64,000 nt of DNA from Pseudonocardia sulfidoxydans NBRC 16205 (GTDB taxonomy: Bacteria > Actinomycetota > Actinomycetes > Mycobacteriales > Pseudonocardiaceae): NCBI RefSeq assembly GCF_007989085.1, contig NZ_BJVJ01000007.1, forward strand, positions 62,001 to 126,000, read 5' to 3'. Position 1 is the first letter of the stretch. Each line of letters begins with the position of its first letter. This document shows, piece by piece, positions 11,937-53,663 of this stretch. Both the position numbers and the translations under genes were made by a program. Below the pieces are notes generated by a model. The model saw only the letters and a program-made list of their open reading frames with translations, had not been told where the DNA came from and ran no database searches.

Positions 11937-11979
11937 ACGCTACCTTTTCGGATGCAGCATCGTCAAGATTGGATCCCAC
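11937..11979 (-). promoter_or_regulatory. Promoter and VanR-like operator for the 11902-127 operon
   Basis: Read on the minus strand, the palindrome GTGGGATCCAAT (11968-11979, 10 of 12 matches to ATTGGATCCAAT as an inverted site) is followed by one base, then -35 TTGACG (11961-11966), an 18-base spacer and -10 TAGCGT (11937-11942). Transcription would start near 11930, leaving a leader of about 28 bases. The operator overlaps the last codons of the acyl-CoA synthetase gene. Confidence 0.65.
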
Positions 11980-13465
11980 TCACGACGTCGTCCCGGACGA
12001 CGCGGCGCAGCAGCTTGCCGGTGTCCGTGTAGGGGAGTTCCTCGCGGAAGGCGACGACAGCCGGCGCGCACGTCGACCGCAGGAGTGCGCGGACGTGAGC
12101 ACGCAGGTCGTCGGCCGCCACCGCGGCCCCGGGTTCGAGCACGACGGCAGCCGCGACGGCCTCGCCCCACTCCGGGTCCGGGACACCGAAGACGGCGACG
12201 TCCGCGACGGCCGGGTGCTCCAGCACCGCCGCCTCGATCTCGCCCGGCGACAGGTTCTCCCCACCCCGGACGATCACGTCGTCGAGGCGGCCGAACACGT
12301 AGAGGAAGCCGCTGTCGTCGAGCATCCCCGCGTCCCGGGTGGGGAACCAGCCGTCGGCCCGGGTGGCGCGGTGCCCGACGTACTCGCCGGACACCTGCTC
12401 ACCGCGCACCCAGATCTCGCCACGCTCCCCCGCCGCCAGCTCCTCGCCCTCCGGGCCGCGGATGCTCACGTCGAGACCGGGCACCGGCCGACCGACGGAA
12501 CCCAGCCGGGCCCGGACCTGCGGGTCCGACGACGCGAACGCCTCGCGATGGTCGTCCGGGCCCAGCACGGCGACGGTGCTCGAGGTCTCGGTGAGCCCGT
12601 AGGCGTTGACGAACCCGACGCCGGGGAAGGCCTCGAGGGCCCGCTGGATCACGGGGAGCGGCATGGGCCCGCCGCCGTAGGACAGCGACCGCAGGGCGGG
12701 CAGGCCGGCGCCGTCGAGATCGTCGAGGATGCGGCCGAGCATGGTGGGCACGACCATCGCGTGCGTGATCTGCTCGCGCCGGGCGAGGTCGGTCCACACG
12801 CGGGCGTCGAAGGACTCCAGACGAACCACGCGCCGGCCCGCGAACAGGTTCGACAGCACCGCGGAGACACCTGCGACGTGGTACGGCGGGACCCCGACGA
12901 GGGCGGCCTCGTCCGGCCCGGCGCCCCCGTACTCGACCGTGGAGAGGATGTAGGAAACCAGGTTGTGGTGACGCAGGATGGCGGCTTTCGGCTCACCGGA
13001 GGTCCCGCTGGTGAACAGCAGCACGGCAACGGCGTCCGGGTCCGACGGAGCCTCCGCGATGGGCGGCACCGCCGCGTCGGCGGCGGCCGCGAGGAGCTCG
13101 TGGCGGGGCAACAGGGTGATGCCCGCGATCGTCCCGATCCGTTCGGCGACGGACCCGTCCGCCACCACGACGGTGGCCGGTGCCAGCCGCTCGACGACCG
13201 CCCGTAGCCGGTCGTCGGCCAACCGGTAGTTGAGCGGGGCGAACGGGACGCCCGCGTACGCCGCGCCGAGCAGTGCCAGCGGCACGGCGTCGGAGTTGAG
13301 GTCGATCATGCCCAGCCGCTCGACGGACCCGGCCACGAGCAGGGCGCCGACGCGCCGCGCCCGCAGGTCCAGCTCCGAGAAGCTGAGTCCGTCCGCGAGC
13401 CCGCCCGCCGCGATCCGGTCCCCCATCCCGTCGGCGGCCATCGTCGAGAGCATCGTGATGTTCAT
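11963..13465 (-). CDS. Acyl-CoA synthetase (AMP-forming, FadD-like)
   Basis: This 500-residue ANL-superfamily enzyme activates a carboxylic acid through an acyl-adenylate to its CoA thioester. The P-loop motif 'LLFTSGTSGEPKAA' is at residues 149-162. 'NAYGLTETSSTVAV' follows, then the hinge and C-domain 'FGRLDDVIVRGGENLSPGEIE', and the catalytic lysine region 'TDTGKLLRRVV' near the C terminus. The protein is short but complete. It is transcribed divergently from the GntR regulator at 13611, with a GGATCC-centred site between them. It is probably the entry step that commits the island's carboxylate substrate. Confidence 0.92.
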   Translation of the reverse strand: MNITMLSTMAADGMGDRIAAGGLADGLSFSELDLRARRVGALLVAGSVERLGMIDLNSDAVPLALLGAAYAGVPFAPLNYRLADDRLRAVVERLAPATVVVADGSVAERIGTIAGITLLPRHELLAAAADAAVPPIAEAPSDPDAVAVLLFTSGTSGEPKAAILRHHNLVSYILSTVEYGGAGPDEAALVGVPPYHVAGVSAVLSNLFAGRRVVRLESFDARVWTDLARREQITHAMVVPTMLGRILDDLDGAGLPALRSLSYGGGPMPLPVIQRALEAFPGVGFVNAYGLTETSSTVAVLGPDDHREAFASSDPQVRARLGSVGRPVPGLDVSIRGPEGEELAAGERGEIWVRGEQVSGEYVGHRATRADGWFPTRDAGMLDDSGFLYVFGRLDDVIVRGGENLSPGEIEAAVLEHPAVADVAVFGVPDPEWGEAVAAAVVLEPGAAVAADDLRAHVRALLRSTCAPAVVAFREELPYTDTGKLLRRVVRDDVVSGIQS

Positions 13466-13504
13466 GGCGCACTGCAGGCGGTTGCTGTATCCATATCGAC
13501 AAGT

Positions 13505-13516
13505 TTAGGATCCCAT
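13505..13516. promoter_or_regulatory. GGATCC-centred operator in the synthetase/GntR divergent region
   Basis: TTAGGATCCCAT matches ATTGGATCCAAT at 9 of 12 positions and sits about 40 bases upstream of the acyl-CoA synthetase ATG. On the minus strand a TTGTCG follows it, but a convincing -10 at 17 bases is missing. An alternative -35 (TTGATG at 13518-13523) would place the operator inside the promoter. It is a likely site for the adjacent GntR protein. Confidence 0.5.
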
Positions 13517-13601
13517 CAACGCCAAGTCGAGCAGTTGCAAGGAGTCACCGTGCCGATCGAACAGAGTGTCGGCGGCATGACTGCGATCCGACACGACGTA
13601 G

Positions 13602-13613
13602 ACTGGATCCATG
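13602..13613. promoter_or_regulatory. Operator overlapping the GntR start codon
   Basis: ACTGGATCCATG, 9 of 12 matches to ATTGGATCCAAT, ends on the ATG of the GntR gene. A possible -10 TAGACT (13599-13604) overlaps it, with a poor -35 about 16 bases upstream, so the transcript would be leaderless. Binding here would block the regulator's own transcription. Confidence 0.5.
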
Positions 13614-14375
13614 ATGGCCGAGGCGACAGCCACCGGAAGCACGCCCGCCCGCGTCACGACACCACGCCGGGCCAACGACCGCGACCTCGTCGACTCACTG
13701 GTCACGGTGCTGCAGGAGCGGATCAACGCGGGCGAGATCCCCGCCGGGTCGTGGCTGCGGCAGGAGGCACTCGCGAAGGAGCTCGGCGTCAGCCGCATGC
13801 CCGTACGGGAGGCGCTGCGCGAGCTCCAGGCCCGGGGCAGCGTCGAGCTGATCGCCAACCGCGGCGCCCGGGTACGGCTGCCCTCGACCCGGGACATCAT
13901 CGAGGTCTACGAGCTCCACGGGCTCCTGCAGGGCCACGCCGGGGAGGCTGCCGCCGAGCTGATCACCTCGCAGCAGCTCGACCGGCTGGCGGCGGCGGAG
14001 GAGCTGTTCCGGCAGTCGGTCGAGGACCTTCGGGCGGCCGACGACGACACCACGACGGCACAGCGCCACTGGCACGAGGCGAACACCGAGTTCCACACGG
14101 TGATCATCGAGGCCGGTGGCAACAAGCACCTCGCGGAGATGTACGACAACCTGCACCACAAGGTCCCGCGCAACCTCACCTGGATCGCCCTGGGCAACGA
14201 CGTGCGCCGGCTCGAGAAGGACGCCGCGGAGCACGCCGGAATCCTCGACGCGATCGGCCGCGGCGACCCCGCCGCCACCCGTGCCCTGCTGACCGAGCAC
14301 GTCAAGAGGGCCAGCGACCTGCTCGTCCGCACCGTGGACGAGATCGGACAGGACAGTCCCCCACGGCGGAGGTGA
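13611..14375 (+). CDS. GntR-family transcriptional regulator, FCD subfamily (VanR-like)
   Basis: This 254-residue protein has an N-terminal winged helix (residues 25-95) with 'LRQEALAKELGVSRMPVREALRELQARG', the standard GntR recognition helix. A C-terminal all-helical FCD domain (about 105-245) keeps the metal-ligand histidines in 'EANTEFHTVIIEAGG', 'EHAGILDAIG' and 'LLTEHVKRA'. FCD regulators sense small organic acids. Two ATGs are adjacent (13611 and 13614). Two GGATCC-centred palindromes flank the gene's promoter and five more lie upstream of other operons. The Caulobacter FCD protein VanR binds ATTGGATCCAAT, so this is the best candidate regulator of the whole island. That link is inference from motif and family. 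Confidence 0.9.
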   Translation: MMAEATATGSTPARVTTPRRANDRDLVDSLVTVLQERINAGEIPAGSWLRQEALAKELGVSRMPVREALRELQARGSVELIANRGARVRLPSTRDIIEVYELHGLLQGHAGEAAAELITSQQLDRLAAAEELFRQSVEDLRAADDDTTTAQRHWHEANTEFHTVIIEAGGNKHLAEMYDNLHHKVPRNLTWIALGNDVRRLEKDAAEHAGILDAIGRGDPAATRALLTEHVKRASDLLVRTVDEIGQDSPPRRR

Positions 14376-16178: not shown

Positions 16179-16199
16179 ATTTCGAAGGCGATTCGAAAT
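16179..16199. promoter_or_regulatory. Perfect palindrome upstream of the MFS gene
   Basis: ATTTCGAA, five bases (GGCGA), then TTCGAAAT form an inverted repeat in the 281-base gap 16086-16366 between the second TetR and the MFS transporter. The size and symmetry suit a TetR dimer. Apart from short GC-rich inverted repeats just after the TetR stop, nothing else is recognisable in the gap. Confidence 0.5.
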
Positions 16200-18805: not shown

Positions 18806-19723
18806 ATGACGAAGGACTTTCTGAAGGACGTGCTGGAGAAGCACATCGCGGAAGGCTCGGACAACACGATCTGGTGGGACGAGGAGCGCATCCCGCTCCA
18901 CACGATCGACCAGCGCGTGACCGACGTGATGAGCCTGAAGGGGCGCACGGCCGTCGTGACCGGCGGCGCCGGGATCAACCTGGGACAGGCGATCGTCCAC
19001 CGGCTGGCCGGGCTGGGGGCCGACGTCGCGATCGTCGACATGGAGCCTGCGAAGGCCGCCGCCCTGCAGGAGTCGTGGGGCCGCAAGCCCGGCCCGTCGG
19101 CCGAGGAGCTGGCCAAGATCGTCGCCGACCGGTGGGACGTCGAGGCGGTGGGGATCTACGGCGACGCGCTCGACCCCGCGGGCATCCGCACGATCCTGGC
19201 CGAGGCGAACGAACGCCTGGGCCGGATCGACATCCTGGTCAACAGCGCGGTGGCGACCTACGTCGGTGAGCTGGCGACCGCGACCCCCGAGCAGATCGAC
19301 GCCGCGATCGCGGGCACCCTGGCCGCACCGATCCACTCGTGCCGCGCGGTCCTGGACCACATGATCCCCCAGGGCTACGGCCGCATCGTCAACATCGGTT
19401 CGGAGGCTTCCCGGACCGTCCTCCCGGACCTCGGGCTCTACGGCACGCTCAAGGCCGGGGTCGCCGAGTTCACCCGCCACCTCGGCAAGGAGGTGGCCAG
19501 GCACGGCGTGTTCGTCAACGGGGTCAACGCGGGCAGCATGTGGGGCCCGGGCCGGGAGCTGCTCCCCGACACCTGGCAGACCCTCTACGACCACGGACGC
19601 ACGGCGATCCAGCGCTACCAGCTGCCCGAGGAGGTCGCCAACATGGTGGCGTTCCTGGCCTCGGACGCGGCGAGCTCCATCGTGGGGACGACCGTCGACG
19701 TCGGGGGCGGGATGTCGCTGTGA
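18806..19723 (+). CDS. Short-chain dehydrogenase/reductase with N-terminal extension
   Basis: This 305-residue SDR carries about 45 extra residues before the Rossmann fold. The cofactor loop reads 'VTGGAGINLGQAI', a variant of TGxxxGxG, and the usual NNAG is 'NSAVAT'. The catalytic set is present as Ser near 199 ('NIGSEASRT'), Tyr212 and Lys216 ('YGTLKAG'). NAD(P)-dependent oxidation of an alcohol or reduction of a ketone is expected. The stop overlaps the start of the next gene (GTGA), pointing to coupled expression with the unknown protein at 19720. Confidence 0.85.
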   Translation: MTKDFLKDVLEKHIAEGSDNTIWWDEERIPLHTIDQRVTDVMSLKGRTAVVTGGAGINLGQAIVHRLAGLGADVAIVDMEPAKAAALQESWGRKPGPSAEELAKIVADRWDVEAVGIYGDALDPAGIRTILAEANERLGRIDILVNSAVATYVGELATATPEQIDAAIAGTLAAPIHSCRAVLDHMIPQGYGRIVNIGSEASRTVLPDLGLYGTLKAGVAEFTRHLGKEVARHGVFVNGVNAGSMWGPGRELLPDTWQTLYDHGRTAIQRYQLPEEVANMVAFLASDAASSIVGTTVDVGGGMSL

Positions 19724-21081
19724 CCCTGCCGGGGCAGACCCTCGACGAGCCGCGGGGCGCGGAGCTGACCCCGGACCACGTCACGGCGGTGCACCAGCGG
19801 ATCTGGGACGGGCGCGGCTCGGTGGCGGGCCTGCGCCTCGTGGTCCCGCCCTGCCCGTACACGGCGTCCGAGCTGGCGGCGCTGGAGCAGTCGGGGCGCC
19901 GGGTCGGCTACCTCCCGCCGGAGGCGGCGACCCGCGCCACCCGCCACGTCCTCGGCACGATCTTCCCGGCGATGGGCTGCTACAGCCTGCAGCCGGACAA
20001 CGAGGTGGAGAACCTCGTGAGCCGCGCGGGCTGGTTCGACTACGAGACCGCGATCGATGCCCCGTACGCGGGGACGGACGAGGCCGAGCTGCGCGAACAG
20101 GTGCGGGCCGCGGGTCGCGACCTGGTGAGCATGAACCAGTACATCGTCGCCGCGCAGGACAACAGGCTGTTCACCGGCCACTACCTCGACGAACGCCGCA
20201 CCTGGCCCCGCATCGGGATCCGCGTCAGCGGACGCATCGTGTGCGCGCGCTTCGACGGCGACGAGATGGCCGAGGGGCTGGGCGACGAACCACCGGTCCC
20301 GGGCTCGCTGTTGACCGGCTACGACCTGCACCCGGACTTCCGCGCGCCCTACACCGGCGGACGCTCCGCCGGCGTCTCCCACAGCGAGCGCCTGGTCGAG
20401 GTCGAGCCGGAACCCCCTGCGCCGCAACGAGGTGTCCACCCCTGCCAGGAAGGCGAGGTGGACCTCGACGCGGAGTGGCGACGCCAGGTCGGCGGGCTCG
20501 TGGTGGCCGGCTTCGCCGCCGAGCTCGGGATGGGCGCCGAGGAGTACGCGGCGTCGCTGCCTCGCTTCGCGCCGCAGCCACCGGAGTACCGGGGCCGGCT
20601 CGACGCGCCGGTCGTCGTCGAGACCCGGATCGGGTGGGAACGCCAGTACGAGCTGCTCGGGATCCGCGTCTCCCCGTTCATGGCGTTGTTCCCCGAGGCC
20701 GTGCCGTGGCACCCGGACTCCGCCCACCGGGACGCGCCCTACACGGCGTGGTTCACCCGGTGGGGGCAGCGGTTCGAGGGCCCGACGTCGCCCGACGACG
20801 CCCGCGCGGCCCTGGCGTCCGACGAGGTGGGGGCGAACCTGCAGGAGGGTGGCGCCGTCCTGCACTCCTACCCCGAGCTCAACCGTGCCGCCCGCTTCTT
20901 CGACCTCGTCGGGTTCGTCTACCCGGCGGCCGAGATCGGCGGCGGCGTGCCCTTCGAGCCGATCGAGCGGACACCCGGGATCTGCCGGTGGCGCGGGCGT
21001 CCCGAGTACGCCGCCAACCTGTACCCGTTGGCGTTCAGTGTGTTCCGGCCGCTGGTCCGCGGACGGACGGTCACGGCATGA
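19720..21081 (+). CDS. Unrecognised 453-residue protein coupled to a molybdopterin oxidoreductase
   Basis: I do not recognise this family. It is soluble, with no signal peptide or membrane segment. It has a conserved-looking N-terminal half ('GYLPPEAATRATRHVLG', 'MGCYSLQPDNEVEN', 'VSMNQYIVAAQDNRLFTGHY') and a C-terminal half rich in aromatic residues ('PYTAWFTRWGQRFEG', 'YPAAEIGGGVPFEP'). Three cysteines are scattered and form no cluster motif. The GTG start overlaps the SDR stop and the TGA overlaps the ATG of the molybdopterin enzyme, so the three proteins are translationally linked. It may be a partner subunit or a substrate-processing enzyme of that oxidoreductase; this is inferred from position only. 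Confidence 0.6.
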   Translation: MTLPGQTLDEPRGAELTPDHVTAVHQRIWDGRGSVAGLRLVVPPCPYTASELAALEQSGRRVGYLPPEAATRATRHVLGTIFPAMGCYSLQPDNEVENLVSRAGWFDYETAIDAPYAGTDEAELREQVRAAGRDLVSMNQYIVAAQDNRLFTGHYLDERRTWPRIGIRVSGRIVCARFDGDEMAEGLGDEPPVPGSLLTGYDLHPDFRAPYTGGRSAGVSHSERLVEVEPEPPAPQRGVHPCQEGEVDLDAEWRRQVGGLVVAGFAAELGMGAEEYAASLPRFAPQPPEYRGRLDAPVVVETRIGWERQYELLGIRVSPFMALFPEAVPWHPDSAHRDAPYTAWFTRWGQRFEGPTSPDDARAALASDEVGANLQEGGAVLHSYPELNRAARFFDLVGFVYPAAEIGGGVPFEPIERTPGICRWRGRPEYAANLYPLAFSVFRPLVRGRTVTA

Positions 21082-23303: not shown

Positions 23304-24059
23304 TCAGGTCCGGGGGCCGCCCGCCACGTACAGGACCTGCCCGGACACGAAGCCGGAGCGCTCGTCGACGAAGAAGGACACGGCCTGCGCGATGTCGTCC
23401 GGCCCACCCGCACGCCCGACGGGGATCTCCGCCACGCGCTGGGCCAGGTAGTCGTCCCACGGCACCCCGATCCGGTCCGCGGTCGCGCGCGTCATGTCGC
23501 TGACGACGAAGCCGGGCGCGATGCAGTTGGCCGTGATCCCGAAGCGGCCCAGCTCGAAGGCGAGCGTCTTGGTGAAGCCCTGCAGTCCCGCCTTCGCCGC
23601 GGCGTAGTTGGCCTGACCGCGCTTGCCCAGCGCCGAGGTCGAGGACAGGTTCACGATCCGGCCCCACCCCGCCTCGACCATGTATCGCTGCACCGCCCGG
23701 GTGACGAGGAACGACCCTCGCAGGTGCACACCCATGACCGCGTCCCAGTCGGCCTCGGTCATCCGGAACAACAGGTTGTCCCGGGTGATGCCGGCGTTGT
23801 TGACCAGCACCGTGGGCGGGCCCAGCTCGGCCTCGACGCGGTCGACGGCGACCTGCACGGCATCGGCGTCGGCGACGTCGGCGGCCACCGCGACCGCGGT
23901 CCCGCCCTCGGCGACCACGGCGTCGGCGGCGGCCTTCGCGGCGCTCTCCTCCAGGTCGAGGACGGCGACGGCGAACCCGTCACGGGCGAGACGGCGCGCG
24001 GTGGCCGCGCCGATCCCGCGGGCGGCGCCGGTGACGATCGCGACGCGTGACTCGGACAT
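23304..24059 (-). CDS. SDR-family oxidoreductase, FabG-like
   Basis: This 251-residue classical SDR has the NAD(P) loop 'TGAARGIGAATA' (residues 10-21), 'VLVNNAGIT' near 84-92, and a catalytic triad formed by Ser near 140 ('NLSSTSALG'), Tyr152 and Lys156 ('NYAAAKAG'). The C terminus 'SGQVLYVAGGP' is typical of 3-ketoacyl-reductases and 3-hydroxyacyl-CoA dehydrogenases. It is the last gene of the minus-strand operon starting at 31637, where a hydroxyacyl-CoA or alcohol dehydrogenase step is expected between hydration and C-C cleavage. Confidence 0.9.
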   Translation of the reverse strand: MSESRVAIVTGAARGIGAATARRLARDGFAVAVLDLEESAAKAAADAVVAEGGTAVAVAADVADADAVQVAVDRVEAELGPPTVLVNNAGITRDNLLFRMTEADWDAVMGVHLRGSFLVTRAVQRYMVEAGWGRIVNLSSTSALGKRGQANYAAAKAGLQGFTKTLAFELGRFGITANCIAPGFVVSDMTRATADRIGVPWDDYLAQRVAEIPVGRAGGPDDIAQAVSFFVDERSGFVSGQVLYVAGGPRT

Positions 24060-40690: not shown

Positions 40691-41604
40691 CAGACGAACC
40701 CCTCGGACCGGAAGGCACCGTCACGCCAGTCGAGGGCGGCCTGCAGCCCGCCCTCGTCGAGCCGTTCACGGAACGCCCGGGCACCGGGGCGGAAGTTGCC
40801 GCTGAAGGAGTGCCACGCCCAGGACTGGTCGAAGTGCGTCTTCATGCCCTGGATCTCGTAGGCCTGGTTGACCGAGTGCTTGTTCGCGGCCAGCAACCCC
40901 GGGGCGATCGACGAGATGGCCCGCAGCTCGCGCTGCGTCTGCGCCTCCAGCTCGGCGGCCGGGAAGGACTTCACCACCCAGCCCATCCGGGCCGCCTCGG
41001 CGCCGGTCACCGAGTTCCCGGTCAGCTGGAGGTACTTGGCCTGCGCCATGGTCATCTTCCAGGGGAAGAACGGCACGTCGGGGCTGGTCATCCCGCGCAT
41101 GGGCGGGTAGCCGATCCGGGCGTCGTCGGCGACGAAGGCGATGTCGCACATCGACATGAGCTCCGTGCCGCCGGCCACGCAGTGCCCGTGCACCATGGCG
41201 ACGACGGGCTTGAGCAGGTCCCAGATCGTGTACCAGTCCCGAACGCAGCTGCGCGCCCACTGGTCGGTCCAGCCGTCGAACTCCGCGGCGTCGACCCAGC
41301 GTTCGGGCCGGACGCCGTCGTCGCGGTAGTAGCCCGAACTCTGCTTCCCGCTGGTCTTCGGCCCGGTGGAGAGGTCGTACCCGGCGCAGAACGACGGTCC
41401 GGCCGCGCGGACGAGCACGACCGACACGTCGTCGTCGGCCTCGGCGACGCGCAGGGCATGGATGATCTCGCGGCGCATCAGGTAGCTGAGCCGGTTGCGC
41501 TTGTCCGGGACGTTCAGGGTGATCGTCGCCACCCGGTCCGCGACCGCGTAGAGAATCTCCTCGTAGCCGGCCCGGGGCTCTGTCGTGGTCTCTGTCGTGG
41601 TCAC
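40690..41604 (-). CDS. Enoyl-CoA hydratase/isomerase-family protein
   Basis: This 304-residue crotonase-fold protein has the CoA oxyanion strands 'FCAGYDL' and 'VHGHCVAGGTELMSMCDIAF', and a long C-terminal part. The first catalytic Glu position is within 'AGGTELM', as in 2-enoyl-CoA hydratases. An insert of about 30 residues ('STGPKTSGKQSSGYYRDDG') after the first oxyanion strand is longer than in the average hydratase. Its ATG overlaps the synthetase stop by 4 bases. It would hydrate the product of the adjacent dehydrogenase pair. Confidence 0.88.
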   Translation of the reverse strand: MTTTETTTEPRAGYEEILYAVADRVATITLNVPDKRNRLSYLMRREIIHALRVAEADDDVSVVLVRAAGPSFCAGYDLSTGPKTSGKQSSGYYRDDGVRPERWVDAAEFDGWTDQWARSCVRDWYTIWDLLKPVVAMVHGHCVAGGTELMSMCDIAFVADDARIGYPPMRGMTSPDVPFFPWKMTMAQAKYLQLTGNSVTGAEAARMGWVVKSFPAAELEAQTQRELRAISSIAPGLLAANKHSVNQAYEIQGMKTHFDQSWAWHSFSGNFRPGARAFRERLDEGGLQAALDWRDGAFRSEGFV

Positions 41605-43322
41605 GAGCGGTCCGATCTGGTCGGGGGGTTGGGCGTGTCGACGAGTGCGCGGAGCTCGCGCTTGAGCACCTTCCCGGCGGCGTTGCGCGGCAACGGGTCC
41701 GGGCCGATGAGGAACCTGGTGGGAACCTTGAAGGGGGCGAGCATCGGTGCGGCGTGCGCGCGCAGGTCCTCCGCGGTCACGACCGCTCCGGGTCGCACCT
41801 GCACCACGGCCGCGACCTCCTCACCGAGCCGGCGGTCCGGGACGCCGACGACCGCGACGTCCTCGACCCCGGGGTGGTCGCCGAGCCGTTCCTCGACCTC
41901 GGCGCAGTACACGTTCTCACCACCCCGGATCACGACGTCCTTGATGCGGTCGACGATGGACACGAAACCGTCGGCGTCGCGGCGGACCAGGTCCCCGGTG
42001 CGGAACCAGCCGTCGGGGGTGAACGCCCCGGTGTCCTGGTTCCAGTAGCCGCGGGCGACGTTCGGCCCGCGGAACCAGGCCTCGCCGACCTCGTCGGGGC
42101 CGACGTCCGTACCGTCCGCGGCGACGACCCTGACCTGCGAGGTCGGGAAGGCCCGGCCGACGGACAGGGGGCGGCGGAAGTAGTCGTGCGATCCGATCAT
42201 CATCATGGCGCCCGTGGTCTCGGTGAGCCCGTACCCGGTCGCGGTGCCGGTCCGGCCCTCGAACAGGGTGCCGATCCGGTCGATCAGCACAGCGGTCGAC
42301 TGGGCGCCGCCGGTGGCCAGCGTGCGCAGCGACGGCAGCCGGGTGCCGGTGCGCTCGATCTCGTCCATGAGCTGGCGGGCGACGGGCGGCACCGCGGTGA
42401 GGGAGTCGACCTGCTCCCGCACCATCAGCTCGACGGCGCGGCGCGCGTCCCACCGGTACATCAGGACCAGGTGCAGCCCGGTGATCGCCGCCGAGACGAC
42501 GCGGGGCAGGTAGGCGACGTGGAACAGCGGCCCGGTGACGAGCATCGTCGGTCGCTGCGGTGCCGGCGCCACGTCGTCCCCGCGGTCCCGGGCGAGCTCG
42601 GCCTCGACCATGGCGTGCACGCGCATGTTCATCGAGGTCGTGAGGTGCGCACGGTGGGTGGCGACGGCGCCCTTCGGCCGGCCGCTGGTGCCGGAGGTGT
42701 AGAGGATCGTGGCGTCGTCGTCCGGGTGCAGGGGCACGGTGGCGGGGTCGAACCGGCGATGCTCCCGCGCCAGGACGGCGGTCCACTCGTCGTCGCCGCG
42801 CACGGTGTCACCGGGGCGGACCTCGACGACGGCCCGCAGCGCCGGGAGCTGCGCCCGCCGGGCCTGGACGGCCTCGGTGCGCTCCCGGTCCGCGACGAGC
42901 AGCCGGGCCTCGCAGTCGGCGAGCGCCGCGGCCAGCTCCGGCCCGGTCCACCAGGCGTTGAGCGGGACACAGACTGCTCCGACACTCACCGCCGCCGCGA
43001 ACGAGACGATCCACTCGGGATGGTTGCGCATGGCGATGGCGACTCGGTCGCCCTTGCCGATCCCGTACCGGTGGACCAGGAGCGTGGCGAACCGGTCCAC
43101 GGCCTCCTGGTGCTGCGCCCAGGTGTGGCGCTCGTCCTCGTAGGTGACGGCGAGCCGGTCGCCCCAGTGGCCGCCCCCGGCCATGACCTCGCGCAGACTC
43201 GCCGGAGCGTTGACGTAGACGGGATGCTCGTCGCGACCGATGCGGACGCGGCGGAGCGCGAACTCGCCGTCCCCGTCGGTCAGCCGGGCGATGATCGCAG
43301 CGCGGCGTTGGGTCTCGTTCAC
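41601..43322 (-). CDS. Acyl-CoA synthetase (AMP-forming, FadD-like)
   Basis: This 573-residue ANL enzyme carries 'ATILYTSGTSGRPKGAVATH' near residue 205, 'TGYGLTETTGAMMMIG', the hinge 'VDRIKDVVIRGGENVYCAEVEE', and the catalytic lysine in 'RNAAGKVLKRELR'. It activates a carboxylate with ATP and CoA. It is the first gene of a five-gene operon (synthetase, hydratase, two dehydrogenases, cyclase) behind a GGATCC operator promoter. Confidence 0.93.
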   Translation of the reverse strand: MNETQRRAAIIARLTDGDGEFALRRVRIGRDEHPVYVNAPASLREVMAGGGHWGDRLAVTYEDERHTWAQHQEAVDRFATLLVHRYGIGKGDRVAIAMRNHPEWIVSFAAAVSVGAVCVPLNAWWTGPELAAALADCEARLLVADRERTEAVQARRAQLPALRAVVEVRPGDTVRGDDEWTAVLAREHRRFDPATVPLHPDDDATILYTSGTSGRPKGAVATHRAHLTTSMNMRVHAMVEAELARDRGDDVAPAPQRPTMLVTGPLFHVAYLPRVVSAAITGLHLVLMYRWDARRAVELMVREQVDSLTAVPPVARQLMDEIERTGTRLPSLRTLATGGAQSTAVLIDRIGTLFEGRTGTATGYGLTETTGAMMMIGSHDYFRRPLSVGRAFPTSQVRVVAADGTDVGPDEVGEAWFRGPNVARGYWNQDTGAFTPDGWFRTGDLVRRDADGFVSIVDRIKDVVIRGGENVYCAEVEERLGDHPGVEDVAVVGVPDRRLGEEVAAVVQVRPGAVVTAEDLRAHAAPMLAPFKVPTRFLIGPDPLPRNAAGKVLKRELRALVDTPNPPTRSDRS

Positions 43323-43390: not shown

Positions 43391-43432
43391 ACGCTACGTG
43401 CGGGATACCAAAGCGTCAATACTGGATCCTAT
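43391..43432 (-). promoter_or_regulatory. Promoter and VanR-like operator for the 43322-37474 operon
   Basis: Minus strand: operator ATAGGATCCAGT (43421-43432, 10 of 12), one base, -35 TTGACG (43414-43419), 17-base spacer, -10 TAGCGT (43391-43396). The leader would be about 60 bases. The operator sits 5 bases beyond the stop of the upstream hydratase gene. Confidence 0.7.
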
Positions 43433-46961: not shown

Positions 46962-47003
46962 ATTGCATCCAATCTAGACGATTCTGAATCCCTTCGATAG
47001 CCT
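46962..47003 (+). promoter_or_regulatory. Promoter and best-matching VanR-like operator for the CoA transferase at 47032
   Basis: ATTGCATCCAAT (46962-46973) matches ATTGGATCCAAT at 11 of 12 positions. One base later come -35 TAGACG (46975-46980), a 17-base spacer and -10 TAGCCT (46998-47003), in the same order as in the minus-strand operons. The site also lies 30 bases upstream of the divergent thiolase-fold gene and may control both. Confidence 0.7.
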
Positions 47004-47031: not shown

Positions 47032-48249
47032 ATGACGCAGGACCTGCCGTTCGCCGGGGTGGTGGTCGTCGACCTGAGCCAGGGCATCGCCGGCCCCATG
47101 GCCACGATGATGCTCGCCCAGTACGGCGCCACCGTGATCAAGGTGGAGCCACCGGGCGGCGACTGGCTGCGCGCCCCCGCGCGCATCCCCGGCGGGAACA
47201 CCGGCGTCACCGTCTCCGGCAACATGGGCAAGCGCAGCATCTGCCTCGATCTCAAGTCGGATCGGGGCGCGGAGGTCCTGAGGCGGCTCGTCGCCGGCGC
47301 GGACGTGTTCGTCGAGTCCTACCGCCCGGGTGTCGTCGGACGGCTCGGCTTCTCCTACGACGCGGTGGCCGCGCTGAACCCCGACATCGTCTACGCGTCC
47401 GTGTCCGGCTTCGGGCAGTCCGGGCCGCACGCGCAGCGCCCGGCGATGGACCCCGTCCTCCAGGCGTACGCGGGGCTGATGGCCGAGCACGGGACGTTCC
47501 TCGACGGGCCGCACCGGCTGATCACGATCCCGGTCGACCTCACCGCGGCCCTCTTCACCTTCTCCGCGCTCTCGGCCGCGTTGTACGGCAAGCGGATCCA
47601 CGGCAACGGCACCCACCTCGACCTCACCCTGCTGCAGGCTGCCGCGTGGCTGGACCTGCACGCCCTGCACGAGCGGCTGCTGCACGACGGCCGGCTCGCC
47701 CCCCAGCCCACGATCTACGGCAACTACCGCACCGCCGACGGCGAGATCTTCGTCGCCGCGCTCAACGAGACCGAGTGGGCACGGCTGCGCACCGCACTCG
47801 GCGACGACGAGCGCCTCGTCGCCGACCGGTTCCGCCCCTACGGCGCGCTGCGCGCCCCCGAGCCGCACACCGGCGCCTCGGCCGAGCTGCGTGCCCTCGT
47901 GGCCGAGCTGCTCCTCGGCGGGACCACCGCGCACTGGGTCGAGACCTTCAACGCGCACCGGGTCATGTGCGCCCCGGTCAACGACTCGCTGGCGTTCCTG
48001 CAGGAGCCGCACGTCGAACAGCTCGGGCTGTTCGACCGGCTGACGCAGCCCGGCCTCGACTCACCCGTACCGATCCCCGCGCTGGCCGGCCTGCCCATCA
48101 GGGAGGGCACCGCACGCGCGGTCGCACCGCTCGCCGGTGCCGACACCGCGGCGATCCTCGCCGACCACGGATACTCGGCGGAGGAGATCTCCTCGCTCCT
48201 GGACGCGGGAGTCGTGTCCTCGTCCGCCGAGCCGGTCGCGGCCGAGTAG
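47032..48249 (+). CDS. CaiB/BaiF (family III) CoA transferase
   Basis: This 405-residue class III CoA transferase has 'VVVVDLSQGIAGPMATMMLAQYGATVIKVEPPG', 'GNMGKRSICLDLKSDRG', 'SYRPGVVGRLGFSYDAVAALNP', and the catalytic Asp loop 'ITIPVDLTAALFTFSALSAAL'. Intact single-domain length. The start has GGGAGA 6 bases upstream. It faces the thiolase/DUF35 operon and ends one base from the convergent transporter operon. Confidence 0.92.
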   Translation: MTQDLPFAGVVVVDLSQGIAGPMATMMLAQYGATVIKVEPPGGDWLRAPARIPGGNTGVTVSGNMGKRSICLDLKSDRGAEVLRRLVAGADVFVESYRPGVVGRLGFSYDAVAALNPDIVYASVSGFGQSGPHAQRPAMDPVLQAYAGLMAEHGTFLDGPHRLITIPVDLTAALFTFSALSAALYGKRIHGNGTHLDLTLLQAAAWLDLHALHERLLHDGRLAPQPTIYGNYRTADGEIFVAALNETEWARLRTALGDDERLVADRFRPYGALRAPEPHTGASAELRALVAELLLGGTTAHWVETFNAHRVMCAPVNDSLAFLQEPHVEQLGLFDRLTQPGLDSPVPIPALAGLPIREGTARAVAPLAGADTAAILADHGYSAEEISSLLDAGVVSSSAEPVAAE

Positions 48250-48250: not shown

Positions 48251-49432
48251 TCAGGGGGCGTGGACGACGCCCGCGGCGTGCAGCCGCTCGATCTCCTCGG
48301 TCGCGAGGCCCGCCGATCCGAGCAGCTCACGGGCGCCCTCCCCCAGCGCGGGTGTGCGGGCGACCCGGGTCGCGTCCGGCGGGCCGAGGTGCAGCGGCAT
48401 CGCGGGAGCCTCGACGACCGAGCCGTCCGGGTGCCGCAACCACCCCACGCCCGCGCGTTCCCGCACGTGCGGCAGCCGCAGGCCCTCCGCGACCGTGAGC
48501 ACCGGCGACACACAGACGTCCTCGTCACCGAAGACCGCGAGCCACTCCGCCCGGCTACGGGTCGCCAGCACCTCGGCGACGGTGGCGCGCAACAGGTCCT
48601 GCCGGCCGCGGTCGTGCTGGGCCCCGCCGTCGTCGATCCCGGTGAGCGCACAGAAGCGCTGCCAGAACCGTTCCTCGAGCGCCGCGACCGCGAGCAGTTC
48701 GCCGTCGGCGCAGCGATACACCGAATAACAGGCGAGCTCGCCGCTGAGCATGCTCGTGCGCGCCCCGACGTCGACGCCGAGCATCAACGCCTGCGCCTGG
48801 GCGACGACCAGCGAGAACATCGCGCCGTCGAACAGCGACGACTCGGCGACGACACCGTCGCGGGTCCGGCCCGCCTGCAGCACCCCGCTGACGGCGGCCA
48901 GCGCGGCCAGCGTCGCGGCCAGCCAGTCCGCGACCTGCACCGGTGCGGGCGCGGTGGTCTCCTGGCGGGCCATCGACAACACACCGGCCATGGCGGCGTA
49001 GTTGAGATCGTGGCCCGCCGCACCCGACAGCGGTCCGCCCGACCCGTAGCCGGGCAGCGTGACATAGCTCAGCGCCGGCCGCCGCTCCCGCAGCGCGCCG
49101 GCCCCGATCCCGAGCCTGTCGGCCACCCCGGGCCGCATCCCCTCGACGACCACGTCGACCGTCCCCGCCACCGCCAGGAAGACGTCGCGGCCCGCCGGCA
49201 GGCGCAGGTTCACCGGGAGGCTCCTCTTGCCCCGGTCGAACACGAGATGGTTGACGCCGACCCCCCGCACGAGCGGCTCCATGGTGCGGGCGTTGTCGGT
49301 GCCGTCGACCGGCTCGACCTTCCAGACGTCGGCGCCCAGTTCGGCCAGCAGCCACGTCGTGATGCACCCGACGCCGATCCAGGACAGGTCGAGCACCCGG
49401 ACGCCGGCGAGCGGGCCGGCCCCCTCCGCCAC
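48251..49432 (-). CDS. CaiB/BaiF (family III) CoA transferase in the transporter operon
   Basis: This 393-residue protein has 'VRVLDLSWIGVGCITTWLLAELGADVWKVEPV', 'FDRGKRSLPVNLRLPAGRD', 'GMRPGVADRLGIGAGALRERRP' and catalytic Asp loop 'VQVADWLAATLAALAAV'. GTG at 49432, two bases after the ATPase stop, is taken as start since the family's first strand follows it directly. Cotranscription with an ABC importer suggests that the imported carboxylate is charged with CoA on arrival. Confidence 0.88.
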   Translation of the reverse strand: MAEGAGPLAGVRVLDLSWIGVGCITTWLLAELGADVWKVEPVDGTDNARTMEPLVRGVGVNHLVFDRGKRSLPVNLRLPAGRDVFLAVAGTVDVVVEGMRPGVADRLGIGAGALRERRPALSYVTLPGYGSGGPLSGAAGHDLNYAAMAGVLSMARQETTAPAPVQVADWLAATLAALAAVSGVLQAGRTRDGVVAESSLFDGAMFSLVVAQAQALMLGVDVGARTSMLSGELACYSVYRCADGELLAVAALEERFWQRFCALTGIDDGGAQHDRGRQDLLRATVAEVLATRSRAEWLAVFGDEDVCVSPVLTVAEGLRLPHVRERAGVGWLRHPDGSVVEAPAMPLHLGPPDATRVARTPALGEGARELLGSAGLATEEIERLHAAGVVHAP

Positions 49433-49434
49433 GG

Positions 49435-50577
49435 TCAGGACACCAACGAGGGGCGGACGCCGTAGGACTCCACGAGCCGTCCCTGCTCGCCGGACTCGTA
49501 GAGCAGGGCCGTCGAGTGCCGGAACACGGCCTCCACCCGGTCCCCGGAGCCGAACGGCCAGACGCCGGTCCGGGCGGCGGCCACGATCCGTGCCTCCCCG
49601 ACCTGCACCACCCATTCACTGCTCTCACCGCTGTAGACGACGTCGGTGACGACGCCGGGAACCCTGCCGACGTCGGCGTCGTCGGGACCGGACCCGGGAA
49701 CGGCCAGGGACACGTCGGTCGAGCGCAGGTACAGGTCGAACCGGTCGCCGGGCAGATCGCCCGCCGCGGGCAGCCCGATCCGGACGTCACCGCCGCCGAC
49801 CGCCCAGAGCCCGCCCGGGTCCCGGGCGAGCTCGAGACGGTTGCCGATCCCGAGGAACCGGGCGACGTAGGCGCTGGCCGGACGTGAGAACAGGCTCGCC
49901 GGCTCGGCCAGCTGCTCCACCTTGCCGTCCTTCAGGACCGCGACGACGGTGCCGAGCTGCATCGCCTCCGTCTGGTCGTGGGTGACGTAGAGGCCGGTGA
50001 ACCCCAGGGTGCGGTGCAGCTCGCGCAGCTGTTGGCGCAGCTGCGCCCGCAGCCGGTAGTCCAGGTTGGACAGCGGCTCGTCGAACAGCATGAGCCCCGG
50101 CCGGGCGACGAGCGCGCGGGCGAGCGCGACGCGCTGCTGCTGCCCGCCGCTGATGGCCGACGGGACCCGGTCCGCCAACGCCTCGCACTCCACCAGGGCC
50201 AAGGCCTCCCGGGCCTGCCGGCTCCGCTCGTGGCGCGCCGTCCCGCGCACCCGCAACGGGTAGGCGACGTTCTGCTCGACCGTCATGTGCGGCCACAGCG
50301 CGTAGTTCTGGAAGACCATCCCGATCCCGCGCCGATGCGTCGGGACCTGGGTCCGGCCGCCGCGGCCGAACATCAGCGCGCCGCCGATCTCGATCGTCCC
50401 GCTGTTCGGCGTCTCGAGCCCCGCGACGCAGCGCAGCAACGTCGTCTTTCCGCAGCCGCTGGGTCCGAGCAGCACGACGAGCTGGCCCTCGGCGAGGGTC
50501 AGGCTCAGGTCGTCCACCGCCCGCACCCCGCCCGAGTCGAACAACTTGGCCAGCCGGTCGATCCGTACTTCGCTCAC
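49435..50577 (-). CDS. ABC transporter ATP-binding protein (PotA/FbpC type)
   Basis: This 380-residue ATPase has Walker A 'GPSGCGKT' (38-45), Q-loop 'VFQNYALWPHM', signature 'ISGGQQQRVALARAL', Walker B 'LMLFDEPLSNLD' and H-loop 'YVTHDQTEAM'. A C-terminal TOBE/OB domain spans about 250-380. It matches importers for spermidine, iron(III) or phosphonates. It is downstream of the fused permease, separated by an 88-base gap that holds a long inverted repeat. Confidence 0.93.
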   Translation of the reverse strand: MSEVRIDRLAKLFDSGGVRAVDDLSLTLAEGQLVVLLGPSGCGKTTLLRCVAGLETPNSGTIEIGGALMFGRGGRTQVPTHRRGIGMVFQNYALWPHMTVEQNVAYPLRVRGTARHERSRQAREALALVECEALADRVPSAISGGQQQRVALARALVARPGLMLFDEPLSNLDYRLRAQLRQQLRELHRTLGFTGLYVTHDQTEAMQLGTVVAVLKDGKVEQLAEPASLFSRPASAYVARFLGIGNRLELARDPGGLWAVGGGDVRIGLPAAGDLPGDRFDLYLRSTDVSLAVPGSGPDDADVGRVPGVVTDVVYSGESSEWVVQVGEARIVAAARTGVWPFGSGDRVEAVFRHSTALLYESGEQGRLVESYGVRPSLVS

Positions 50578-50604
50578 TTCGGTGCTCCAACGTTGTGAGG
50601 GCGA

Positions 50605-50669
50605 CTAGGAGGGTGCTGAACAACTCCGGCCGTCGCGCAGTAGGTCCGAGTTGTTCAGTGCGCTCCTAG
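50605..50669. repeat. 65-bp inverted repeat between permease and ATPase genes (MITE-like or RNA hairpin)
   Basis: The left arm 50605-50626 and right arm 50648-50669 are each 22 bp; the right arm's reverse complement differs from the left at 3 positions. Both ends are CTAG, and the TAG on the minus strand at the 50666 side is the permease stop codon. The arms share TGAACAACTC. The loop is 21 bases. The size and CTAG borders suggest a small non-autonomous element; alternatively it is an RNA stem tuning ATPase expression. Confidence 0.6.
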
Positions 50670-52393
50670 ATCTTGTCGACGGTGTTGCCACCGGCGATGA
50701 CCCAGGAGATGGCGATGCCGACGAGGGTCACCGCGAGCATGAGCAGGGAGAGGACGGCCACGTTCGGCGCGGAGCCGTTGACCGTCTCGTCGTAGAGCAG
50801 GGAGCCGATCACACGCCGCGTCGGCGAGGTCACCATCAGGGAGACGGTGAACTCGTGGGCGACGATGATCGTGACGAGGGCCGCGGCCACCCCCAGACCG
50901 CTGCGGATCAGGGGGAACGTGACCCGCAGGGCCGTTCCCAGCGAACCCGCGCCCGACACACGTGAGGCCTCCGAGTACTCGGGACCGATCGCCGTCAGGG
51001 CGGAGAGCTGGGGCCGGACCGCGAAGGGGATCGTCAGCGTCACGTACGCGACGACCACCATCGCCGTGGTGCCGTAGAGCTGGAAGGGCGGCTCCGAGTA
51101 GGTGAACAGGAAGGCGAACCCGAGCAGCGACACCGGCATGCAGAGGGCGATGCTGCCGAGGATGTCGATGGGGAGCCGGACGACGCCCGGGACCCGGGTG
51201 CGCTGCAGCAGCGCGACCGACACGAGGTAGCTCAGCGGCAGCACGACCACCAGCGTCAGCAACAGGGCGAACAAGGTCGTGACGATGGCGTCGACGGTGT
51301 TGCTGTTGCTCCACACGGACGTCCAGTTGTCCAGGGTGAACGTCGACGGGTCGATGCGCCCGGACCAGAAGGGCGACAACGAGACCGACACGAGCGCGCC
51401 CAGCGGCAGGACCACGGCGACGACCAGGTAGCCGAGGATCGGCACGAGCGCCCAGCGGGACGTGGTGAGCCCGACCTGGCGGCTGCGGGCCGACACCGAG
51501 ACGTAGCGTCGCTCGTCGCGCAGCGCCCGCCGCTGGACGAGGATCACCGCGATGCCGACGACCAGCAGCGGTAGCGCGAGCGCGCCGCCGAGGGCGTAGT
51601 CCACCGGGTAGTCCGCCGACACCTTGTAGACCGCGGTGCTGACGACGTCGATGCGGTCCGGCGTGCCCAGCAGCAGCGGCACGGTGAACTGGCCGAGCGC
51701 CAGCAACGCGACGATGGCCGTGGAGTAGACCAGCGCGGGCCGCATCATCGGGAGCGTGACGGTCAGGAACGTGCGCCCCGGCGACGCACCGCACGCCGCG
51801 GCCGCCGCCTCCAGCTCCGCGCCGCGCTGCCGAAGGCTCGCGCTCACGAACATGAAGACGAACGAGGTCAGGATCGTCCCGGCCATGAGGATGATGCCCG
51901 TCATGGAGTAGACGTCCAGCGGGCCGCTGTCGCCGGACCCGATGCCCCACCCGCGCAGATACTGGTTGAGAATCCCCGTCCGCGGCGAGAGCAGGTACGA
52001 CCAGCCCTGGACGCTCGCGACCGAGGGCATCAGCAGCGGCACGATCGGCAACAACGACATCGCCTTGTACAGCCGCTTCGGCACGCGGGTGAGGCACCAT
52101 GCGAGGCCGGTCCCGGCCACGACGGCGACGGCGGTGGAGCCGACCGCGATGATCAGCGTGTCGAGGTAGGTCCGGCCGAGGTCCGGGACTTCGGCCAGCC
52201 TGCCGAGGGCGCCCGGCAGGTCGTCGACCATGCGCGCCTCGAGTGCGACCAGCGGCCACAGGATCAGTGCTGCCATGACCAGGGCGAGCAGCGCCCAGTG
52301 CCAGCCGGCGGCCGTCGGTGACCGGCGGCCCGTCGGCCGGGCCGTCGGCGTCGTCGCGTCGGGGGTGCGGGTCTGTTCCTGCGTCGATGTCAT
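50666..52393 (-). CDS. ABC transporter permease, fused two-unit FbpB type
   Basis: This 575-residue membrane protein has two permease units of about 6 TM segments each. The EAA loops are 'LEAAAAACGASPGRTFLTVTLPMM' near residue 195 and 'SEASRVSGAGSLGTALRVTFPLI' near 475, the sites that contact the ATPase. This fused arrangement is typical of iron(III)/phosphonate-type importers. The ATG follows the binding protein by 17 bases. Its stop codon lies inside the 65-bp inverted repeat, so the last residues 'NTVDKI' may have been shaped by that insertion. Confidence 0.92.
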   Translation of the reverse strand: MTSTQEQTRTPDATTPTARPTGRRSPTAAGWHWALLALVMAALILWPLVALEARMVDDLPGALGRLAEVPDLGRTYLDTLIIAVGSTAVAVVAGTGLAWCLTRVPKRLYKAMSLLPIVPLLMPSVASVQGWSYLLSPRTGILNQYLRGWGIGSGDSGPLDVYSMTGIILMAGTILTSFVFMFVSASLRQRGAELEAAAAACGASPGRTFLTVTLPMMRPALVYSTAIVALLALGQFTVPLLLGTPDRIDVVSTAVYKVSADYPVDYALGGALALPLLVVGIAVILVQRRALRDERRYVSVSARSRQVGLTTSRWALVPILGYLVVAVVLPLGALVSVSLSPFWSGRIDPSTFTLDNWTSVWSNSNTVDAIVTTLFALLLTLVVVLPLSYLVSVALLQRTRVPGVVRLPIDILGSIALCMPVSLLGFAFLFTYSEPPFQLYGTTAMVVVAYVTLTIPFAVRPQLSALTAIGPEYSEASRVSGAGSLGTALRVTFPLIRSGLGVAAALVTIIVAHEFTVSLMVTSPTRRVIGSLLYDETVNGSAPNVAVLSLLMLAVTLVGIAISWVIAGGNTVDKI

Positions 52394-52410
52394 GATCGGG
52401 TCCCGGGGAC

Positions 52411-53523
52411 TCAGCCGAGCCGCATCTTCGCGTTCCAGAGGTCGGTCACCCAGGTCTTCTGTTCCGGAGTCAGGACCCCGTCGACGACGGTGGCGCCTGC
52501 CGGGATCGACCGCATGGTCGTGGGCACCTCGCCCAGCGCCGCGAGGTCGAGCGGGGTCAGCAGGGATCCGCTGCCGTTCAGGGCGATCTGCCCGGCGGGC
52601 GAGAGCAACCAGTTCTGGAAGACCTGGGCGGCATTGGGGTTCTTCGCCCAACCGACGACCGCCGCGGTCACCGGCGTCGAGATCACGGGTTCGAGGGTCA
52701 CGAACTCGACGGGGGCGCCCTTCGCCGCGAGCGCGTCGATCGTCCCCTTGATGTTGTAGGCCCCGACCGCGACCTCGCCGGAGGCCAGGTCGGTGGCGAG
52801 GGTGGCGGGCACGGTGTAGAGGCGGGGCTGGAGATCGGCGAGCTGTCCGACCGCGGGGTCGCCACCCATCTCCTTGGCCGCGTAGAACCACCACTGCTCG
52901 GCGGCGGGCGCCCCGGTTCCGGGGACGATTCCGAGCGCGCCCTTGAGCTGCGGTGCCAGCAGGTCCTTGTAGGTCGTCACGGGCGGGTTGCCGAGCTTCG
53001 CGAGCTGCTCGGTGTTGATCCCGGCCCCCAGCGGGGTCGCGGCGGCGAGGACGTACTTCCCGTCGCCGTAGACGTAGCTGCTGTCGCCCCAGTACTTGCC
53101 CAGTGCGGGACCGGTCGATGCGACCAGGACGTTCAGGTTCGCCTCGAGCCAGGGCTTCGTGGAGACGGTGATGACGTCGGCACCGGCGACGCCGCCGCCC
53201 TTCTCGGCGTCGAGCTTGGTGGTGAGCTCACCCGAGGCGTACTTGGAGACGACGAGCTCGATCCCCGGGTACGCCTTCGCCCAGGCGGCCTCGAACTCGG
53301 CGTTGACCCCGTCGGAGTTGCTGTAGAGGACGACCTGGCCCTCCTTGTTGGCCGCGTCGACCACGGCCTGCCAGGCCGGTCCGCCACCCTCGTTCGGATC
53401 GGCGACGGACCCACCCGCGGCGGCCGGCGCAGCGGCCGAGCCACACGCGGCGGTGAGCGCCAGCGCACCGGCGGCCAGTACCGCCGTCACAACGGATCTG
53501 CACGTGCGGGAAAAGAACCTCAT
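52411..53523 (-). CDS. ABC transporter substrate-binding lipoprotein (iron(III)/PotD-like fold)
   Basis: This 370-residue extracellular solute-binding protein has an N-terminal signal 'SVVTAVLAAGALALTAAC' with lipobox Cys27, then a serine/alanine-rich tether. The mature domain begins 'WQAVVDAANKEGQVVLYSNS', typical of the FutA/FbpA-type family 1 proteins. The usual iron-ligand tyrosine pair is not seen, so an organic anion is a likely ligand. The ATG at 53523 has AGGAGGAG 8 bases upstream; a longer in-frame start would put 21 residues ahead of the signal and was rejected. First gene of the operon. Confidence 0.9.
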   Translation of the reverse strand: MRFFSRTCRSVVTAVLAAGALALTAACGSAAAPAAAGGSVADPNEGGGPAWQAVVDAANKEGQVVLYSNSDGVNAEFEAAWAKAYPGIELVVSKYASGELTTKLDAEKGGGVAGADVITVSTKPWLEANLNVLVASTGPALGKYWGDSSYVYGDGKYVLAAATPLGAGINTEQLAKLGNPPVTTYKDLLAPQLKGALGIVPGTGAPAAEQWWFYAAKEMGGDPAVGQLADLQPRLYTVPATLATDLASGEVAVGAYNIKGTIDALAAKGAPVEFVTLEPVISTPVTAAVVGWAKNPNAAQVFQNWLLSPAGQIALNGSGSLLTPLDLAALGEVPTTMRSIPAGATVVDGVLTPEQKTWVTDLWNAKMRLG

Positions 53524-53621
53524 CGCGTCTTCTCCTCCTGAGTCGGGCACGTCCGCGGAGCGGTCCTCATCGCTCGACGGCGACACGCCTCGTTGCGTAT
53601 CGGGCCCCTGTGGTGGCCAGG

Positions 53622-53663
53622 AGCGTATGCACGGGATACGGTCGTGTCAATATTGGATCCTAC
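53622..53663 (-). promoter_or_regulatory. Promoter and VanR-like operator for the ABC importer operon
   Basis: Minus strand: operator GTAGGATCCAAT (53652-53663, 10 of 12), one base, consensus -35 TTGACA (53645-53650), 17-base spacer, -10 TACGCT (53622-53627). This is the strongest promoter of the set by match to sigma-70-type elements. The leader is about 90 bases. Confidence 0.75.

Follow-up and report, generated by a model that had tools for sequence, protein, structure and literature searches.

A tandem operator with a VanR-like promoter layout in a predicted GntR/FCD regulon of catabolic operons in Pseudonocardia

Caulobacter VanR binds ATTGGATCCAAT, and FCD regulators of the VanR group possess a six-helix effector domain, compared with seven helices in the FadR group. 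VanR is described as a GntR-family repressor (PMC13154678), and a vanillate-inducible Caulobacter construct (PMC6538847) contains GGATCCAATCTTGACG, a 16-nt run of palindrome core, AAT, one base and -35 hexamer that we infer, from the construct as presented there, to be part of the vanillate promoter. Another repressor of the VanR group, Atu1419 of Agrobacterium fabrum, binds a palindrome as well as a degenerate palindrome (PMC7797058), while several dimers of the GntR-type repressor NanR of Escherichia coli bind cooperatively to a repeated operator whose spacing matters (PMC8012715). The GntR sites of Suvorova 2015 (PMC4494728) include palindromes with weaker additional boxes and, in some divergons, double sites at near-constant spacing. 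Here we describe a related arrangement in a 64,000-nucleotide stretch of Pseudonocardia sulfidoxydans NBRC 16205 (hereafter the window; C7:62001-126000, G+C 72.8%, from a genome of 6.58 Mb in 209 contigs), where five catabolic operons share an operator and a GntR/FCD regulator gene starts at 13611. Read from the sequence, this operator consists of two cores arranged in tandem at a distance of 21 bp, and in the promoters the second core, NATCC, lies within the spacer between the -35 and -10 hexamers.

The initial annotation of the window had proposed five promoters in which a 12-bp palindrome and a single base precede the -35 hexamer, with two further palindromes beside the FCD gene. All seven sites (11968, 31743, 43421, 46962, 53652, 13505 and 13602) were recovered at these coordinates, and the five promoters have exactly the hexamers and distances proposed, namely -35 elements TTGACG, TTGACC, TTGACG, TAGACG and TTGACA, spacers of 18, 17, 17, 17 and 17 nt, and -10 elements TAGCGT, TACCGT, TAGCGT, TAGCCT and TACGCT. 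The palindrome as the whole operator held only in part. Its GGATCC core occurs in six of the seven sites (GCATCC at 46962), but the left flank is poorly conserved, position 0 being T in just 8 of 26 promoter sites against 25 of 26 for its partner A7, and 13505 and 13602 each depart from the 12-mer consensus at three positions, matching 9 of 12. The proposal had also missed the second core, which lies exactly 21 bp from the first in every case and reads GCATCC (11968), GAATCC (31743), GTATCC (43421), GAATCC (46962), GTATCC (53652), GTATCC (13505) and CGATCC (13602). With the start site assumed 7 nt after the -10, the upstream core of the five promoters is centred at about -43.5 to -44.5 and the spacer core near -22.5. 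The operators and the regulator gene are as follows, with gene labels g1-g56 (window) and c1-c57 (contig C4) taken from our own simple gene caller; BVMO denotes Baeyer-Villiger monooxygenase.

11950 to 11979, minus strand: tandem operator GGATCC-N15-GCATCC with -35 TTGACG between the cores, facing g9 (BVMO) to g1.
13487 to 13516, plus strand: tandem operator GTATCC-N15-GGATCC between g10 and the FCD gene, presumably autoregulatory and/or acting on g10; like sites occur in N23, MAG C_3_1 and CB1190.
13584 to 13613, plus strand: weaker tandem site CGATCC-N15-GGATCC ending at the FCD start codon; the same in N23, and ATATCC-N15-GGATCC at the C4 copy c38.
13611 to 14375, plus strand: GntR/FCD regulator g11, predicted as the most likely operator-binding protein (Pfam GntR and FCD; co-occurrence with sites).
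31725 to 31754, minus strand: tandem operator GGATCC-N15-GAATCC with -35 TTGACC, facing g27-g20.
43403 to 43432, minus strand: tandem operator GGATCC-N15-GTATCC with -35 TTGACG, facing g38-g34.
46962 to 46991, plus strand: tandem operator GCATCC-N15-GAATCC with -35 TAGACG, facing the g43 CoA transferase and abutting the divergent thiolase operon g42-g39.
53634 to 53663, minus strand: tandem operator GGATCC-N15-GTATCC with -35 TTGACA, facing g47-g44.

By itself, the palindrome is just above chance and constitutes weak evidence: with up to 3 mismatches allowed, the window has 8 matches, compared with an average of 2.87 in 100 shuffled versions, one of which attains 8. The eighth match, at 24783, lies inside a gene, has no 21-bp partner and was rejected as a site. 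The two-part form is far beyond chance, and the reality of the sites is therefore secure: G[GC]ATCC-N4-TWGAC-N6-GNATCC occurs 5 times in the window and 0 times in 300 first-order Markov simulations, and GNATCC-N15-GNATCC occurs 6 times against a simulation mean of 0.17 and maximum of 3. The spacing was examined in ten stretches, three from the same genome (contigs C7, C4 and C1), two from P. dioxanivorans CB1190 (G010), one from Pseudonocardia sp. N23 (G038), two (G048a and G048b) from the metagenome-assembled genome (MAG) bin C_3_1 (G048), and one each from G060 (G060a) and G017. The query was the palindrome with up to 3 mismatches and an exact GGATCC core, the second half being ignored. It returned 43 sites, 39 of them intergenic, and an ATCC on either strand lay 21 bp to one side of 35 of the 39, compared with 2 of 39 for the best other offset in the range 5 to 55 and none of the 4 coding sites. 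The CB1190, N23, G048a and G060a stretches had been chosen by both FCD and motif matches; in C7 and C4 alone, whose selection did not rest on the second half, 9 of 10 intergenic palindromes have a partner.

A weight matrix trained on 26 sites, the five window promoters included, gave left-out scores of 22.7-36.7 for its training sites. Most of these sites were found with patterns covering both halves, such that the core columns of the corresponding logo are partly conserved by construction, which does not apply to the 21-bp test. The five window promoters score 27.8-37.1 and the pair of sites beside the FCD gene 16.6 and 13.7, while the highest score elsewhere in 115 kb, at an unrelated place, is 9.5; three shuffles yield 4-5 places above 9. 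Aligned with one another, the five promoters are 85 and 79% identical in the operator blocks, 47% in the -10 region and 25-31% in flanks and spacer; since so little is shared outside the operator blocks, they are not recent copies.

The layout resembles that of the presumed Caulobacter vanillate promoter. The 16 nt of GGATCCAATCTTGACG are identical in the 11968 promoter, the full GGATCC and TTGAC are present in every window promoter but 46962 (GCATCC and TAGAC), and AAT in all but 43421 (AGT). The VanR likeness proposed earlier stands for the GntR/FCD regulon and the promoter layout. The spacing differs, as the vanillate construct carries its second palindrome 39 bp downstream and TTGATT at 21 bp, where the window has its second core. 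The target genes of Caulobacter VanR also differ from those of the window. Caulobacter vibrioides has FCD matches in the family search. The vanillate-type promoter TTGGATCCAATNTTGAC found no match in 289 genomes of the class of Pacificibacter, and a single one-mismatch match in Pacificibacter lies between genes that resemble proB and proC by eye.

Atu1419, likewise of the FCD family, shares features of protein and core. Its metal site (N137/H141/H192/H214) combines one Asn and three His with the same N-x3-H and H-x21-H spacing as in the 13611 protein, and in our alignment with its site ATGTATACAT, the essential G3 corresponds to the first G of GGATCC (PMC7797058). In this same alignment, which is our own, the second core keeps the G and C that match G3/C8, and mainly the next position varies. 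The arrangement differs, in that paired Atu1419 sites are 109 or 190 bp apart, the latter seen looped, rather than 21 bp. NanR differs further, with a (GGTATA)3 operator downstream of the polymerase site and cooperativity mediated by a 32-residue N-terminal extension (PMC8012715); the window operator has no GGTATA repeat array of this type, the repeat unit being GNATCC at 21 bp. The additional boxes of Suvorova 2015 are half-sites 7-12 nt from the centre, and positions -20/-21 served there as negative controls (PMC4494728). No report of this regulon or of a 21-bp tandem FCD operator was recognised among the open-licence papers searched. Judged from the sequences compared, the FCD regulon is real and well conserved with a VanR-like promoter layout, and its tandem operator is a new arrangement of a familiar switch.

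Regarding the regulator, the 13611 protein carries a GntR winged helix-turn-helix (PF00392, 2.5e-15, residues 31-88) and a C-terminal FCD domain (PF07729, 6.3e-23, residues 98-232), in which the metal-site residues H162, H208 and H230 are invariant and N158 is conserved in at least 90% of 14 sequences. The genome encodes 39 FCD domains over the cut-off, and of the 30 such loci checked, g11 and c38 alone lie within about 1.5 kb of a tandem site. Relatives with at least 70% identity to the 13611 protein occur in 4 of 62 Pseudonocardia genomes: this one and CB1190, with three copies each (CB1190 also has one of 45%), N23 and the MAG. The motif with at most 1 mismatch is found in 7 of the 62, with 6 matches here, 10 in CB1190, 4 in N23, 4 in the MAG, 1 in G060, one place in G017 (both strands) and 1 in G019, the last taken as chance. 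The multi-site genomes are exactly the four with FCD relatives of at least 70% identity, and the sites in G060 and G017 adjoin FCD genes of 37-38% identity. In a wider sample of 297 Pseudonocardiaceae genomes (46 genera; N23 lies outside the sample), exact matches are confined to 4 genomes, all Pseudonocardia, with none in the reversed control. Among g11, g13, g14 and g31, the FCD gene g11 is the only one with homologs in the two clusters here, the two in CB1190, and the G060 and G017 stretches. From this distribution, the 13611 FCD protein is predicted to be the most likely operator-binding protein. The earlier proposal of a single FCD regulator stands with respect to regulator type and common control; as to number, two relatives of the 13611 protein on C4 (84-85 and 69-70% identity) bring the close copies in this genome to three.

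A genome-wide motif scan extended the regulon beyond the 42 kb to which it had been confined. GGATCC-N4-TWGAC-N6-GNATCC gave 10 matches with at most 2 mismatches in the 6.58 Mb, compared with 0 in the reversed control. Five are exact (four window promoters and C4:96828), two have one mismatch (the fifth window promoter, 46962, and C1:176718), and the three with two mismatches were taken as background. When the -35 is dropped from the pattern, GNATCC-N15-GNATCC has 23 exact rows, compared with 6 for the reversed control; nine of the 23 are the C7, C4 and C1 sites. The second cluster, on C4, includes two FCD copies and carries sites upstream of a BVMO operon (89662), of a branched-chain-type importer (96828) and of c38 (107090); two further C4 sites, 107184 (by c38) and 86917 (before a shortened short-chain dehydrogenase/reductase (SDR) gene), lack an exact partner. 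At C4:82513-86819, there are short pieces matching the double CaiB gene, along with the shortened SDR (169 aa). As these are shorter than their CB1190 counterparts (810 and 305 aa), the second cluster looks partly decayed. The tandem site on C1 (176718-176744) is 133 bp upstream of an SBP_bac_5 importer and points away from it.

Conservation of the regulon extends to the operons themselves. The site is kept at all five window operons in both CB1190 and N23. CB1190 has its acyl-CoA synthetase operon at 1.404 Mb, 2 Mb away from the remaining four, which are near 3.42-3.45 Mb; since the separated operons still carry sites, the site has moved with the operons. The claim that the genes form one pathway is supported only indirectly, through this retention in orthologous operons. 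The set of driven operons proposed at first was right in that five operons share the operator, but the 11968 site faces the BVMO operon and not the acyl-CoA synthetase gene g10, whose last codons its upstream core overlaps. The 46962 site sits between divergent operons. Control of the whole island was likewise too broad a proposal: five operons have the site, but in the window scans no tandem site was found before the major facilitator superfamily (MFS)/molybdo-oxidoreductase operon g15-g19 or among g28-g33. The presumed targets, with predicted operon extents, are listed below; g36 (second dehydrogenase), g37 (enoyl-CoA hydratase) and g45 (transport ATPase) are named by sequence start or BLAST neighbours rather than by Pfam.

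127 to 11902, minus strand: presumed target operon 1, with BVMO g9, double CaiB CoA transferase g8, g7-g5, hydantoinase-like g4/g3, g2 and dehydratase-like g1 (gene calls, Pfam/NCBIfam).
23304 to 31637, minus strand: presumed target operon 2, g27-g20 (esterase, hydrolase, BVMO, amidohydrolase, OB-fold protein, thiolase, hydrolase, SDR).
37474 to 43322, minus strand: presumed target operon 3, g38-g34 (acyl-CoA synthetase, enoyl-CoA hydratase-like protein, two acyl-CoA dehydrogenases, cyclase).
47032 to 48249, plus strand: presumed target 4, CaiB CoA transferase g43.
48251 to 53490, minus strand: presumed target operon 5, g47-g44, an ATP-binding cassette (ABC) importer and CoA transferase.

The target content, comprising two Baeyer-Villiger-type monooxygenases, esterases, hydrolases, acyl-CoA synthetase, acyl-CoA dehydrogenase, a thiolase with a ChsH2-type OB protein, CoA transferases and an ABC importer, would suit the oxidation of a cyclic ketone to a lactone, its opening and CoA-dependent shortening, and the substrate is perhaps an alicyclic or terpenoid-like ketone. 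No Rieske-type oxygenase was found among the 30 window proteins scanned with Pfam. Such a sequence rule picks out co-regulated operons of a large catabolic programme in Pseudonocardia and thereby genes to test together, and it also covers CB1190, a 1,4-dioxane degrader in which the operons are scattered. Moreover, it extends the operators of a very large repressor family, one used in synthetic biology, by a paired-site layout.

Taken together, we consider it likely that one or more FCD repressors act on the two-part operator, occluding the -35 until a metabolite releases them and thereby switching the catabolic operons together. The 13611 repressor, and probably also its two C4 relatives, would bind both cores, i.e., the GGATCC palindrome before the -35 and the degenerate G(not G)ATCC copy 21 bp, or two helical turns, downstream in the spacer. 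A pair of dimers sharing one helical face would then straddle the -35 and block RNA polymerase, and a pathway metabolite at the FCD metal site could release them, turning on the importer, CoA activation, Baeyer-Villiger and beta-oxidation-type operons and the regulator gene at the same time. We give an even chance to the broader idea of an FCD operator grammar, in which a perfect palindrome and an imperfect copy two turns apart clamp the -35 and are read by paralogs that link dispersed clusters through cross-talk, the imperfect copy tuning cooperativity and steepening the switch.

Several observations weigh against the repressor model. Four of the 39 intergenic palindromes fail the exact partner test, two of which are CB1190 sites with a one-mismatch partner (GTATTC, GTATAC), and some of the stretches (C1, G048b and G017) were selected by the two-part pattern itself. 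Beyond the three site-bearing contigs, GNATCC-N15-GNATCC has another 14 exact rows (13 places), compared with 6 rows in the reversed control. The family consensus TKGT/ACMA as given in PMC4494728 differs from the GG/CC core seen here. With regard to the regulator, no tandem site lies within 1.5 kb of the FCD copy c19, the fetched stretches around two FCD proteins of 43-45% identity (G060b and G037) are devoid of sites, and no g11 homolog was found around the C1 site (18 kb fetched), nor in the G048b stretch. The importer beside C1:176718 was rejected as an ortholog of the CB1190 dipeptide importer, the two sharing 31% identity over 236 aa. Finally, an upstream core centred at about -43.5 also occupies a classical activator position.

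This last point leads to the alternative that the FCD protein is an activator bound just upstream of the -35, in a class II position. Some FCD proteins do activate (CitO, as described), and the -10 hexamers are poor, both of which are compatible with activation, as is the placement of the upstream core. However, the second core, centred at about -22.5, would sit within the promoter spacer, the -35 hexamers mostly come close to consensus, and the same layout in the vanillate-inducible Caulobacter construct goes with a GntR repressor. Activation is therefore unlikely in our estimate. A different possibility is that the upstream palindrome is the sole operator and the GNATCC of the spacer is a promoter element for RNA polymerase or a site for an unrelated protein. 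The copy does have a fixed place in each promoter, and position 23 is not G in any of the 26 promoter sites of the logo, which omits CB1190 site 1411058 (second core GGATCC); with this site added, G occurs in 1 of 27. GGATCC also occupies both places in 2 of 12 non-promoter sites (G060a 113248 and G017 7025548). In contrast, the 21-bp pair is also present at or near FCD gene starts in C7, C4, N23, CB1190 cluster b, G060a and G017. In C7, C4, N23 and CB1190 cluster b, the order is reversed, with the perfect core in second place, and no -35 intervenes; the pair is thus independent of a promoter, which makes a sole upstream operator very unlikely.

The operator might also be read by one of the TetR proteins g13, g14 or g31, or by an unlinked protein, with the FCD gene as a passenger, given that the FCD gene has TetR genes as neighbours in CB1190 cluster b and N23 as well as in the window. 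Yet g13 has no homolog (E at most 1e-20) in G048, G060 and G017, three of the six site-bearing genomes, and was rejected as the operator reader on this distribution; the fetched stretches of these three genomes contain no homolog of g14 or g31 either, and the conserved palindrome of the MFS operon, which adjoins the TetR genes, is another one, TTCGAA-N5-TTCGAA. We regard such a reader as highly improbable. Chance similarity or recent promoter duplication, which the near-chance frequency of the palindrome alone might suggest, is rejected as vanishingly improbable, to the extent that sequence can decide, by the simulations of the two-part promoter form and the unrelated flanks of the five promoters.

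Beyond the regulon itself, some further features were observed. In G060 and G017, the tandem site and the 37-38% FCD relative stand beside an oxygenase-like gene, which in G060 has Rieske and LigXa_C domains; this arrangement is perhaps a simpler form of the switch. Within operon 1, g4/g3 (2786-6642) resemble caprolactamase and acetophenone carboxylase subunits, below family cut-offs, and might perhaps encode an ATP-dependent lactone/lactam opener or a carboxylase. The product of g18 (19720-21081, 453 aa) has no Pfam or NCBIfam match at E at most 0.001, and a relative of g18 directly precedes a molybdopterin oxidoreductase gene in the window, N23, CB1190 cluster a and C4. Inverted repeats of other sequence are also present. 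A perfect palindrome 10 bp per arm, TAAACGGGGT-N3-ACCCCGTTTA, lies at 36197-36219 between TetR g31 and g32, and its search pattern matched no other fetched stretch. The palindrome TTCGAACC-N6-GGTTCGAA at 33271-33292, upstream of g29, is also found in CB1190 at 3435117. The perfect palindrome ATTTCGAA-N5-TTCGAAAT at 16179-16199, upstream of the MFS/molybdo-oxidoreductase operon, has TTCGAA-N5-TTCGAA counterparts at the same place in CB1190 and N23, and it is probably the operator of a second circuit involving TetR g13/g14.

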